The position numbers and the translations under genes are program-made. Under the pieces are notes generated by a model that was not told where the DNA came from, searched no databases, and saw nothing but the letters and a program-made list of their open reading frames with translations. From the NCBI GenBank assembly GCA_944325695.1, contig CALVBA010000001.1:1-64000 (forward strand): a DNA stretch of 64,000 nt, in the 5' to 3' direction. This document shows, piece after piece, positions 10,955 through 63,811 of the stretch (position 1 is its first letter; each line of letters begins with the position of its first letter). Origin of the DNA: an uncultured Anaeroplasmataceae bacterium. Lineage in GTDB: Bacteria > Bacillota_I > Bacilli_A > Acholeplasmatales > Anaeroplasmataceae.

Positions 10955-11190
10955 AAAAATAAAAAAACTTGCATCCATAAAAGGACGCAAGTTAAGCGCG
11001 GTACCACCTTTATTCTAAAAAATTACTTTTTTAGCACTTTCTTTTTAACGCAAAGTTACGGATAGTTCTACTTAATTCTTCTATCACTTCGAAGTGTTTT
11101 TCTAATACCATCCTTGCTAAATTTCCATCAACATTAGCTTTCTATAAAGGGTCAGATATTATACTCGTCTTCATCAACGCTTTAATATTT
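10955..11190 (-). ncRNA. T-box riboswitch leader of asnS (Asn specifier)
   Basis: Read on the minus strand, a Stem I with GAAG...AGTA (near 11170) folds against CTTC (11091-11094). This places the specifier AAC at 11098-11096, followed by A, as expected for asparagine. The conserved T-box AAGGTGGTACCGCG lies at 11010-10997 and binds the uncharged tRNA acceptor end. The terminator stem is 10966-10976 with 10983-10993, followed by a T run. Uncharged tRNA-Asn should favour the antiterminator and switch on asnS. The -10 TATAAT is at 11194-11199. Confidence 0.93.
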
Positions 11191-29554: not shown

Positions 29555-30850
29555 TTATGAGCTAATTTCATCTATCTTACGATTAATCGTGTGTGGTACT
29601 TTAACCCATTGTACTTTTTTAAATAATGCCATAAATGACAATGGTAGATAAAAAAACATATAAATAGGGAATGTAAAACAATAAAAGATTTGTTTGTATA
29701 ATGGACAACGAATATTTTTATGATATTTTAGTATGACAATAAAAGCGTTAATAACCAGTAATCCAAAAAATGTCATTCCTAGTGAGCTAAATAGTTGAAT
29801 AGCTAATTTAAAAAACTCTGCGCTAGAATATTCTAAAAAAGATGCATTAATAAAAGTTGATATTGAATAAATAACAAACCACAATGTCGTAATAAGTGGA
29901 ATCGGACTGACATGAACGCATAATTCAAAACTTTCAGCATTAAATCCTTTAAAGTTTTTCTTTATAACTTTTTTAGCATCCCTAAAAAAGATCTGGTGCA
30001 TTCCTTTACACCAACGCAAACGTTGATTTAATGAACTTTTTAATGTTGTTGGTTGTTCATCATAAAAAACTGCATCAGCACAATAACCAATTTTAATTCC
30101 TTCTAAACTACATTTTAAAGAAAATTCAATATCTTCGGTCATCGTATGACAAACCCATCCTGTTTCTTTTAAAAGGTCGGCGCTAATAAAAAAACCCGTT
30201 CCAGAAACAAAAGTTCCAATATCAAAAATACTTCTTGATTGATGAATTAATAAACATTCACGATAAAAAGCCATTGATGCTCCTGCACTAATCCAGTTTT
30301 CAAAGTTTTTTGTATCCCTAAATGATGTAGATACTTTATATCCAGCATCAAATACTTTATTCATCTCTGTAGTGTAATTTTTAGATACTAAATTATCCGC
30401 ATCAAATATAAAAAAAGCTTCATATCCATTATCGTGTTCTCTAAAAATTTTATTAAGTAAAAAGTCTAATGCATAACTTTTTCCTCGTTTTTCTTCATCA
30501 AATCGTTCATATACAATAGCTCCCGCTTTTTTAGCTAAAAGAGCTGTTTTATCATTGCAATTGTCCGCTACAACGAAAACTTGCATTAACTCTTTGGGAT
30601 AATCTTGAGCATAAATACTATGAATCAAATTTTCAATAACGATCTCTTCATTATGTGCACTAATTAAATATGCATACTTATGATTGACCTTCGCATCAGC
30701 AAATTTACGTGGCCTTGTTATAAGTCCAATAAAAGAATATAGCATTTGATGAAAATATATCAAAAAGACAACAATTGTAAAAATCAAATTTATGATTGAA
30801 ATGATTGTCCCAAAAGTATTTTGTTTTACAATGAAGTTGGTTAAAATCAT
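29555..30850 (-). CDS. membrane glycosyltransferase family 2 (paralogue A)
   Basis: A 431-residue processive-type GT2. An N-terminal membrane helix is followed by the GT-A domain: YLISAHNEEIVIENLI, DNCNDKTA, FIFDADNLV (the DxD-like metal site), TEDIEFSLKC (catalytic TED) and QRLRWCKG (the QxxRW product-site motif). Three or four C-terminal membrane helices complete it. This layout is shared with cellulose, hyaluronan and poly-GlcNAc synthases. It is paralogous along its whole length to the gene 86 bases upstream. ATG 30850 is chosen because GGGTGG precedes it; the frame opens at a GTG three codons earlier. The sugar is unknown. Confidence 0.87.
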   Translation of the reverse strand: MILTNFIVKQNTFGTIISIINLIFTIVVFLIYFHQMLYSFIGLITRPRKFADAKVNHKYAYLISAHNEEIVIENLIHSIYAQDYPKELMQVFVVADNCNDKTALLAKKAGAIVYERFDEEKRGKSYALDFLLNKIFREHDNGYEAFFIFDADNLVSKNYTTEMNKVFDAGYKVSTSFRDTKNFENWISAGASMAFYRECLLIHQSRSIFDIGTFVSGTGFFISADLLKETGWVCHTMTEDIEFSLKCSLEGIKIGYCADAVFYDEQPTTLKSSLNQRLRWCKGMHQIFFRDAKKVIKKNFKGFNAESFELCVHVSPIPLITTLWFVIYSISTFINASFLEYSSAEFFKLAIQLFSSLGMTFFGLLVINAFIVILKYHKNIRCPLYKQIFYCFTFPIYMFFYLPLSFMALFKKVQWVKVPHTINRKIDEISS

Positions 30851-60946: not shown

Positions 60947-61489
60947 ATTGATTTCAACTCCATTAAAAGTGCGATATTTGGCTCTATAATAGGACAATAC
61001 GTTAGTGATATTATTATCAATACCTTTATTTATCAAATCGATAATCCTTATCGCATAATTACTAATATTAGTCCTTTACCAACATATATTGCTGCATTTA
61101 GTAGTGGTAGTGTGGCTGGATTTTTAGTTGATCATATGGACCGTTTAGCCATTAAACCGATTAGTACCACTACATTTGTTTATGTAAATGATTATTATTC
61201 TAAAAAAATGAAAATAAAGGATATCGATGAAGTTTTAGATACCAAAGGGTTATTAAGTGATATTATTGTTATTTTGATTATTGCTTATATTTTAGACGAT
61301 TCTAGTCGTAATGATTTTTATAATCACTACTATTTACGTAAATATAAGTATAATTTAAATTTAGATACTAACCTAACGTTTTTTAGCATTGTCATTCAGA
61401 TTATTGTTTTAAATCTTTATTCGGTGTATAAAATTAAACGTGAGCTTAGTTCAACTAGAACAGATATAACAATTATTAATGAAAATTAA
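60947..61489 (+). CDS. membrane protein of unknown function with an apparent non-AUG start
   Basis: The reading frame is open from at least 60938 to the TAA at 61487-61489 and contains no ATG, GTG or TTG until GTG 61112. A very strong Shine-Dalgarno GGAGGGG (60931-60937) points to ATT 60947 or ATA 60944. From there the product has 180 residues starting (I)DFNSIKSAIFGSIIGQYVSD. The part upstream of 61112 has coding character: FIYQIDNPYRIITNISPLPTYIAAFSSGS. Hydrophobic stretches lie near residues 10-30, 50-66, 105-118 and 145-162. No family is recognised. It follows uppP by 36 bases. Confidence 0.6.
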   Translation: MDFNSIKSAIFGSIIGQYVSDIIINTFIYQIDNPYRIITNISPLPTYIAAFSSGSVAGFLVDHMDRLAIKPISTTTFVYVNDYYSKKMKIKDIDEVLDTKGLLSDIIVILIIAYILDDSSRNDFYNHYYLRKYKYNLNLDTNLTFFSIVIQIIVLNLYSVYKIKRELSSTRTDITIINEN

Positions 61490-61507
61490 AAAAACTAAAA
61501 AAAACTC

Positions 61508-61535
61508 TTTACATTTAAAAAAAATGTGGTATAAT
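61508..61535 (+). promoter_or_regulatory. promoter of the purine riboswitch transcript
   Basis: TTTACA (61508-61513), a 16-base spacer and TATAAT (61530-61535) with an extended TG at 61527-61528. Confidence 0.85.
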
Positions 61536-61554
61536 ATCATTCGTAGTTCATTTT

Positions 61555-61620
61555 GTATCATATATGTTATCATAACGGGATAACGTTTCTACCTCATACC
61601 TAATATGAGACTATGATTAA
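61555..61620 (+). ncRNA. purine riboswitch aptamer (guanine type), no downstream gene
   Basis: P1 is ATCATA (61557-61562) with TATGAT (61612-61617). P2 is GTTATC/GATAAC (61566-61571 with 61579-61584), with loop L2 ATAACGG. J2/3 is GTTTCTAC (61585-61592), identical to the family core. P3 is CTCAT/ATGAG (61593-61597 with 61605-61609), with loop L3 ACCTAAT; the GG of L2 can pair with the CC of L3. The ligand-specifying base is C (61611), which indicates guanine rather than adenine. P2 and J1/2 are one or two bases shorter than the textbook aptamer. Confidence 0.85.
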
Positions 61621-61629
61621 ATCTCTCTT

Positions 61630-61654
61630 AGACCCTGTGGCGGGGTCTTTTTTT
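61630..61654 (+). terminator. riboswitch terminator
   Basis: AGACCC/GGGTCT (61630-61635 with 61643-61648) followed by six further T residues. It lies 13 bases beyond the aptamer. Downstream on the plus strand no convincing gene follows for about 980 bases. Confidence 0.9.
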
Positions 61655-61710: not shown

Positions 61711-61747
61711 AAAAGGATTGACATCTATAATGTATAGACATCAATCC
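61711..61747 (-). terminator. probable terminator of the ywaF-like gene
   Basis: Imperfect 15-bp inverted repeat (61715-61729 with 61733-61747, two mismatches), followed on the minus strand by TTTTAATTTTAATT. The T tract is interrupted. Confidence 0.6.
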
Positions 61748-61820: not shown

Positions 61821-62552
61821 TTAATTATTTAGAATATTAATTTTCTTATTTTGTAAGAAATATATAACTTGTGTCACTAAAATAACACCAATAAAGATTA
61901 TTGGTACTAAAATGAAAACATGGTATGGAGCTTTTATTTGATTTAAAAGGGGAATTCCATCTGGACTAGCAAGTCCAATATAATTAGTTCCACGAATTGT
62001 ATTTGCGATAAAAGCTAAAGATATCATAATAATAAAACCAATTGTTGTGGCTTTAATATGTTCTTTTAACTTAGGCATTTTATAAACTTTCATCAATAAT
62101 AAAATTTGTAGAATCATTAATCCATGACTAAACATCGATTGCACGCTCATTAAATGAATTCCACCATAGTCGTAGAAAACCCATAACGGGTAAATCATTA
62201 CTCCAATTCCACCTAATAATGCACATGCTGATATAAAGGGATATAATTTTTCTTTTTTAAATAAAATAATGAAAGGCATGAATAAGCATACTTGATTACA
62301 AATGTCAAATCTAAAAATTCTTAAACTTTGATCGCGATAAATAAACCACCAAATCATTCTAAAAATTTCTAACCCTAAGATAATTTTTGCTACATTGCAA
62401 ACGTTTTTCTCACTTTTATCTACTTTTAACATGACGATAATAATCATAATAATATTTAAACCGGATAAAATAAAATGTTCTAGTGTAAAAAGTTTATTTT
62501 CGGGTTGAAAATAATCACCATAAGCTATAAACCACTTATAAAATTCGTACAT
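61821..62552 (-). CDS. YwaF-like (TIGR02206) integral membrane protein
   Basis: A 243-residue protein with six or seven membrane helices. The family pattern is visible: GDYFQPENKLFTLEHFILSGLNI, WWFIYRDQSLRIFRFDICNQVCLFMPF, and GTNYIGLASP near the end. The function is unknown. ATG 62552 is preferred because AAGGATGTGA lies just upstream; the frame opens 30 codons earlier in promoter-like DNA. It is the only minus-strand gene right of the origin, and its 3' end faces the orphan riboswitch. Confidence 0.82.
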   Translation of the reverse strand: MYEFYKWFIAYGDYFQPENKLFTLEHFILSGLNIIMIIIVMLKVDKSEKNVCNVAKIILGLEIFRMIWWFIYRDQSLRIFRFDICNQVCLFMPFIILFKKEKLYPFISACALLGGIGVMIYPLWVFYDYGGIHLMSVQSMFSHGLMILQILLLMKVYKMPKLKEHIKATTIGFIIMISLAFIANTIRGTNYIGLASPDGIPLLNQIKAPYHVFILVPIIFIGVILVTQVIYFLQNKKINILNN

Positions 62553-62613: not shown

Positions 62614-62630
62614 ATACTAGGGTGATTTAT

Positions 62631-63031: not shown

Positions 63032-63811
63032 ATGCATACATATAATTCGTTATATCGTCAAATTGCTGACTTAGGACTAAAAAAAGATGATACATTGTTA
63101 ATCCATTCATCGCTAAAAAGCGTTGGTGAAATCGAGGGTGGAGCTGAAACACTTCTTGAAGCTTTAGAAGATTATTTTAAAGATGGATTATTGATTTTTC
63201 CGACCCATACTTGGAGTTACATTCAAAAAGACGGCGATGTATTTGATAAAGTTAATAGTGATTCATGTGTAGGAGCTTTGACTAACATTGCTCGCAAAAG
63301 ACAAGGTTATTATCGCAGTAACCACCCAACACATTCGGTTTGTGCCAAAGGGAATAAAGCATATGAATATGTGCAATTAGATAACGAAACATCAACGCCA
63401 ACAAAACCAGATGGATGTTTTGGAATATTAAAAGATATCAATGGATATATTTTGTTTTTAGGGGCAAAATTATCTAAAAATACTTTTGTTCATAGCATAG
63501 AAGAGGCGATGAATGTCCCTAATCGTTTTACGGATAAAAAATTTAATTTTATTACTTTAATGGAAGATGGTACGAAAAAAGAATATCAAACATATCGTCA
63601 TTATAATAAAGAGTGTCCGCATATTTCAGATAACTATGAGAAATTACTACCATTTTTCTTAGAAAAGAATATTGCTCAAAAACATCAAATTGGTGATGCA
63701 GAGTGTTATTTAGTTGATGCTAAAAAATGTTTTGATTTTGTATGTGATATTTTAAATCAAGACATCGATGCTTTATCAACAAATAAAGATATTAAAAATT
63801 TAATAAGATAA
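63032..63811 (+). CDS. AAC(3)-family aminoglycoside/antibiotic N-acetyltransferase
   Basis: A 259-residue enzyme of the Antibiotic_NAT (AAC(3)/YokD/FrbF) family, which uses acetyl-CoA and is unrelated in fold to GNAT. Landmarks: LLIHSSLKSVGEIEGGAETLLEAL, LIFPTHTWSY, SNHPTHSVCAKG (the HPTHS catalytic region), CFGILKDINGYILFLGA and VHSIEEAMNVPNR. YokD-like members are widespread in Bacilli without proven drug resistance, so resistance should not be assumed. GGAGG precedes the ATG. Confidence 0.9.
   Translation: MHTYNSLYRQIADLGLKKDDTLLIHSSLKSVGEIEGGAETLLEALEDYFKDGLLIFPTHTWSYIQKDGDVFDKVNSDSCVGALTNIARKRQGYYRSNHPTHSVCAKGNKAYEYVQLDNETSTPTKPDGCFGILKDINGYILFLGAKLSKNTFVHSIEEAMNVPNRFTDKKFNFITLMEDGTKKEYQTYRHYNKECPHISDNYEKLLPFFLEKNIAQKHQIGDAECYLVDAKKCFDFVCDILNQDIDALSTNKDIKNLIR

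Follow-up and report, generated by a model that had tools for sequence, protein, structure and literature searches.

We find that a purine riboswitch at 61508-61654 (plus strand) of the window, by which we mean the whole 64,000-nucleotide stretch of Anaeroplasmataceae DNA that was analyzed, has promoter, aptamer and terminator motifs of its own and no downstream gene. The explanation that we favor, at a probability of about 55%, is that this locus is a stand-alone gene for a small RNA of ∼110 nt built on a guanine riboswitch aptamer, which is predicted to sense guanine and to work either in trans or by way of its 5′ end or its stability. The gene-less layout and a shared 5′ element are present in three genera, and the two similar stand-alone copies in related bacteria suggest a regulatory RNA that senses a metabolite rather than a broken leftover.

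The sequence-only reading of this stretch had described a complete unit of promoter, purine aptamer and intrinsic terminator, and all three parts were recovered, the aptamer as a match to RF00167 (46.3 bits by cmscan; gathering cut-off 37). The promoter (61508-61535, plus strand; 11/12 in a consensus scan) consists of a −35 element TTTACA, a 16-nt spacer and an extended −10 element TGGTATAAT, in which TGG precedes TATAAT. It ranked first among the 32 promoter-like sites in 4 kb, a region in which such sites do not exceed chance (32 observed vs 33.9 expected). Directly 5′ of the −35 element lies an A-rich tract with a AAAAAAACTCTT run (61489-61507, plus strand), a possible UP element. Two other places in this genome, upstream of tRNA-Tyr and of a putative small RNA, have the same run, and the promoter regions there are also the most similar to that of the window's unit. 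When the whole unit was used as a DNA query, matches to other genomes came mainly via the promoter stretch. The promoter of one related copy described below (genome G010) contains AAAAAAAGTGTTTGAC, which the window's genome also has, in an rRNA-leader-like stretch that follows tRNA-Tyr. Judged by these features, the promoter is probably a strong one of the stable-RNA type, with transcription predicted to start at or next to a heptamer, GUAGUUC. In Bacillus, a 5′ G start ties expression from rRNA promoters to GTP; by analogy, the 5′ G start of the window's RNA could in principle tie its expression to GTP as well.

Similar promoters precede other short transcription units. One lies in the same genome outside the window (L273, ∼260-385; G000:C5, ∼30460-30585), where the promoter is followed by three CCCC-bearing stretches and a terminator; this unit resembles RsaE-type small RNAs with C-rich loops, and it had no Rfam match up to E 0.1. 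Two other genomes (L037 in G020 and L038 in G029) have a similar promoter ahead of a short, strongly conserved RNA (GUGAUUUCGCACUAUAUAUUAUCUCCCAAUUUACUCAUGAGAUCAC), which had no Rfam match, and a terminator.

The intrinsic terminator (61630-61654, plus strand), found in the sequence and in the folding model, has an 8-bp stem (AGACCCUG/CGGGGUCU) with a UGG loop, and its hairpin (61630-61648) is followed by a U tract. In the folding model its probability was 1.00 with and without the P1 helix of the aptamer, a measure that separates only some gene-linked controls, and the transcript would be expected to end ∼110 nt from its start, at a terminator that would not depend on the aptamer. As had been claimed, no credible plus-strand ORF was found between this terminator and 62622, and the next gene is convergent and ywaF-like: it occupies 61821-62552 on the minus strand, codes for a membrane protein of the TMEM164/YwaF family (PF14808, 66.6 bits) and is not counted in the RNA unit. 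A scan of the genome's contigs with the YwaF protein gave no match. In place of the downstream purine gene that a cis-acting switch would control, there is thus an intervening convergent gene, with a plus-strand gene first at 62622. Elsewhere in the window are a T-box leader (10978-11186, minus strand; 116.6 bits) and a gene (63032-63811, plus strand) assigned by family membership alone to the aminoglycoside 3-N-acetyltransferase family (PF02522).

The match to RF00167 spans 61538-61633 (plus strand), with the aptamer core at 61557-61617. In a manual register consistent with the Rfam-model matches, the 5′ strand of P1 (AUCAUA) lies at 61557-61562. The P2-L2 hairpin (61566-61584, from the fold and the manual register) has 6 bp and the loop AUAACGG, whose GG makes the loop-loop contact, and the folded P3-L3 hairpin (61593-61609) has 6 bp and the loop CCUAA. 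Between them, J2/3 (GUUUCUAC, 61585-61592) contains U47 and U51 of a guanine-type pocket. J3/1 and the 3′ strand of P1 (ACUAUGAU) occupy 61610-61617 and include C74 at 61611; a linker, UAAAUCUCUCUU (61618-61629), leads to the terminator. The idea that the aptamer is shortened held for P2, with 6 bp rather than the usual 7, and was not confirmed for J1/2, which in our manual reading is UAU, a 3-nt length that hinges on whether a U-G pair is counted into P2; L3 has 5 nt rather than the usual 7.

Whether such shortening alters ligand preference had also been raised. The ligand contacts of the guanine riboswitch are U22, U51 and C74 (PMC9295807), and in our register all three are present; J2/3 and J3/1 (AC) keep the guanine-I pocket. 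The aptamer does resemble the 2′-dG-I riboswitch of Mesoplasma florum (RF01510) in its 6-bp P2 and compact L3, but its score against that model, 43.2 bits, is below the cut-off of 51 and its J2/3 is of the guanine type, so that the 2′-deoxyguanosine pocket is absent and we did not place it in that class. From its sequence, the predicted ligand pocket is of the guanine-I type, which lends no support to an altered preference.

The window's genome (1.34 Mb in 56 contigs) has three purine riboswitches, the other two of which precede fhs and an NCS2-type purine permease gene, here called pbuG; these names, like those of the purine genes across the order, were read from translations by eye with no family search. 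The leader before fhs (L001, 1501-1802) recalls ON switches in that the P1 3′ strand UACAAAAAA overlaps with the next hairpin, in its 5′ arm; this leader also has a short ORF (∼31 codons) whose end falls in a second hairpin ahead of fhs. We sought purine riboswitches in 160 genomes of the order and examined the downstream DNA of 63 loci and then 91 more (a few overlapping, two ending at a contig edge), for ∼150 riboswitches in total. Nearly all precede genes such as purK/purE, guaB, purL, pbuG, xpt-like or fhs, or genes for a BMP-type lipoprotein or an inorganic pyrophosphatase. In family f3 (L107, L118, L120, L121 and others) the association is unusual, with genes for a 176-aa protein read as an inorganic pyrophosphatase and a 239-aa protein following the riboswitch, and several purK/purL-type leaders (L084, L085, L086, L097, L099) share a conserved CTTGGATCGGAGTTT-like stretch, then a related short ORF and a second terminator-like hairpin.

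Among the ∼150 loci, only two others are gene-less, L076 (genome G010) and L091 (genome G002), one each in two further genera of Anaeroplasmataceae; no further genome of the window's genus was among the relatives searched. All three copies have a promoter, an aptamer, a terminator and a convergent neighbor. L076 and L091 each come immediately after an hflX-like gene, and the convergent gene that each faces is a different one. Their predicted RNAs are longer than the ∼110 nt of the window's copy. An Rfam scan of other hflX loci in the family, including those in other genomes of genus g3, revealed no further gene-less copy, and this patchy distribution counts against a stand-alone RNA, as does the small sample of three sequences, one of which comes from an assembly with an estimated completeness of 75%. 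A covariance model built from the three copies likewise detected no other member in 160 genomes of the order, 395 of the class and 392 of the phylum (next-best scores of 55-58 bits vs 97-99 for the three, which match by construction). A pattern scan of 84,980 species returned G002's own record, two purE riboswitches, apparent chance matches and nothing else.

The three gene-less copies are joined by their 5′ ends. All three carry an identical GTAGTTC (61543-61549 in the window, plus strand) 7-8 nt past the −10 element, which puts it on or beside the predicted start, and it occurs at that position in no gene-linked purine riboswitch of the order that we examined; the pattern scan also placed GUAGUUC before an ordinary purE riboswitch in Sporosarcina. 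In a pairwise ranking, the 5′ flanks of the three were each other's two best matches among 118, and the aptamers themselves were not especially alike. Their alignment also showed CUCU after P1, in the linker, in every copy. GUAGUUC is complementary to the aptamer's own core, GGACUAU, and in an alternative helix pairs with the segment that holds J3/1 and the 3′ strand of P1. Flank and core can form 8 contiguous pairs in each gene-less copy vs at most 6 in 47 others, and by shuffling an 8-bp chance match to the core is expected in 1-3% of flanks. The alternative helix showed no compensatory changes among the three copies, which, like the chance rate and the occurrence in Sporosarcina, weighs against the proposed stand-alone RNA.

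These comparisons bear on the possibility that the riboswitch is a relic, still transcribed without use after the regulated gene was lost or moved. Such events have precedent, since in genome G096 (L058; G096:C1:255582 onward) what reads as an IS91-like transposase gene separates a purine riboswitch from its permease gene, pbuG, whereas the corresponding riboswitch locus of a close relative (L055) is intact, and Rfam scores mark the window's aptamer as the most divergent of the three (46.3 bits vs 72.3 and 71.7). However, the window's copy keeps an intact pocket, loop-loop contact, promoter and terminator, no gene remnant was found 3′ of it, and the one clear wreck, L058, looks different. In addition, independent losses would not be expected to yield a gene-less layout with an identical 5′ heptamer in three genera, nor would a shared 5′ element be expected to outlast drift across them. 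It had been proposed that relatives of this locus might reveal a lost purine gene; a transposase did split pbuG from its riboswitch, although at a different locus, whereas the two copies in related genera proved to be gene-less too. We therefore consider a relic unlikely.

How the stand-alone RNA might respond to guanine was examined with a folding model. In the window's copy, the form in which GUAGUUC masks the core was favored over the P1-closed form by 1.0 kcal/mol, and in the G002 copy by 4.4 kcal/mol; in the G010 copy P1 was favored by 9.3 kcal/mol, a figure obtained with the full competing helix imposed, which disrupted P3. The G010 copy, and not that of G002, has an extra A/U-rich hairpin that competes with P1 (probability 0.94 without P1, 0.48 with P1). 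Because the modeled terminator forms whether or not P1 does, guanine would probably affect the RNA itself and not read-through. We infer that the RNA is expressed, binds guanine, switches and has a target, as follows. Transcription would begin at the stable-RNA-type promoter, at or next to GUAGUUC, and stop ∼110 nt on. In one form the 5′ GUAGUUC would pair with GGACUAU of the core and block the pocket; in the other P1 would close around guanine and free the 5′ end. Guanine may thus shift exposure between the 5′ GUAGUUC and the CU-rich linker. The RNA may then base-pair with other RNAs in trans, or its 5′ end may make it more or less stable.

Some of the same results fit a constitutive small RNA that has lost guanine sensing and keeps the aptamer fold as a scaffold. 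The modeled terminator is independent of P1, and P1 is short in two copies (5-6 bp), where the competing helix is predicted to win without ligand. Yet U22, U47, U51 and C74 are kept in all three gene-less copies, and a mere scaffold would not need them, which makes this explanation a rather improbable one.

A switch over antisense transcription into the convergent ywaF would suit the convergent layout and has a precedent in Listeria, where a B12 riboswitch controls the antisense RNA AspocR (PMC8079631). Folding, however, predicted no antiterminator in the window's RNA and a terminator that forms in either state of P1. Moreover, ywaF has its own terminator-like hairpin facing the riboswitch (61715-61747, minus strand), the convergent neighbors of the other two copies are unrelated genes, and in G004 and G015 no riboswitch adjoins the ywaF-like gene. 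For these reasons we regard an antisense switch as very unlikely. Least credible of all is an ordinary leader for a very short or unrecognized downstream gene: very short ORFs do follow the terminator, but up to 62622 none exceeds 40 codons, and nothing comparable is seen at the other two copies. Thus, of the three roles offered by the sequence-only reading, the ∼110-nt trans-acting small RNA gained support, from the gene-less copies in two other genera, which carry the same 5′ element, and from the stable-RNA kind of promoter, and the relic and the antisense switch lost it.

The stand-alone RNA shares with the guanine-I riboswitch (RF00167) the three-stem aptamer, the pocket nucleotides of J2/3 and J3/1, the G and C bases of the loop-loop contact, its own promoter and a terminator after the aptamer. 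It differs in the lack of a downstream gene, in a terminator apparently uncoupled from P1, in the extra core-complementary 5′ GUAGUUC and in the slightly short P2 and L3. Closer in output are riboswitches of Listeria: SreA and SreB are SAM riboswitches that act in trans, SreA also controlling a downstream operon in cis, and Rli55 and AspocR are non-coding RNAs controlled by B12 riboswitches (PMC8079631). Like SreA and SreB, the window's RNA would be a short, riboswitch-terminated RNA that could base-pair with other messages; unlike SreA it has no downstream operon. As with Rli55 and AspocR, the output would be a non-coding RNA and not a protein; in those cases, however, the riboswitch terminates a longer RNA, whereas here aptamer and RNA are practically one molecule. 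By analogy, the window's RNA would resemble SreA, Rli55 and AspocR in that a riboswitch yields a putative non-coding RNA, and it is a candidate member of that group.

Literature searches of partial coverage found no paper on a guanine riboswitch as a gene-less RNA. A broader and more tentative proposal, which we think possible but doubtful, is that Anaeroplasmataceae have a small class of free-standing guanine-sensing RNAs with the platform at the 5′ end, in which GUAGUUC masks the pocket or is released by guanine, such that the ligand would control the RNA's own 5′ end, as a seed or for stability, instead of a gene downstream. Purine riboswitches are textbook cases of regulation in cis, and a conserved gene-less form would show a classical metabolite aptamer serving as a stand-alone regulatory RNA. 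If that form holds, it would offer a simple system in which to study how riboswitches act in trans, and the lack of a downstream gene would be no reason to dismiss a riboswitch as a relic.
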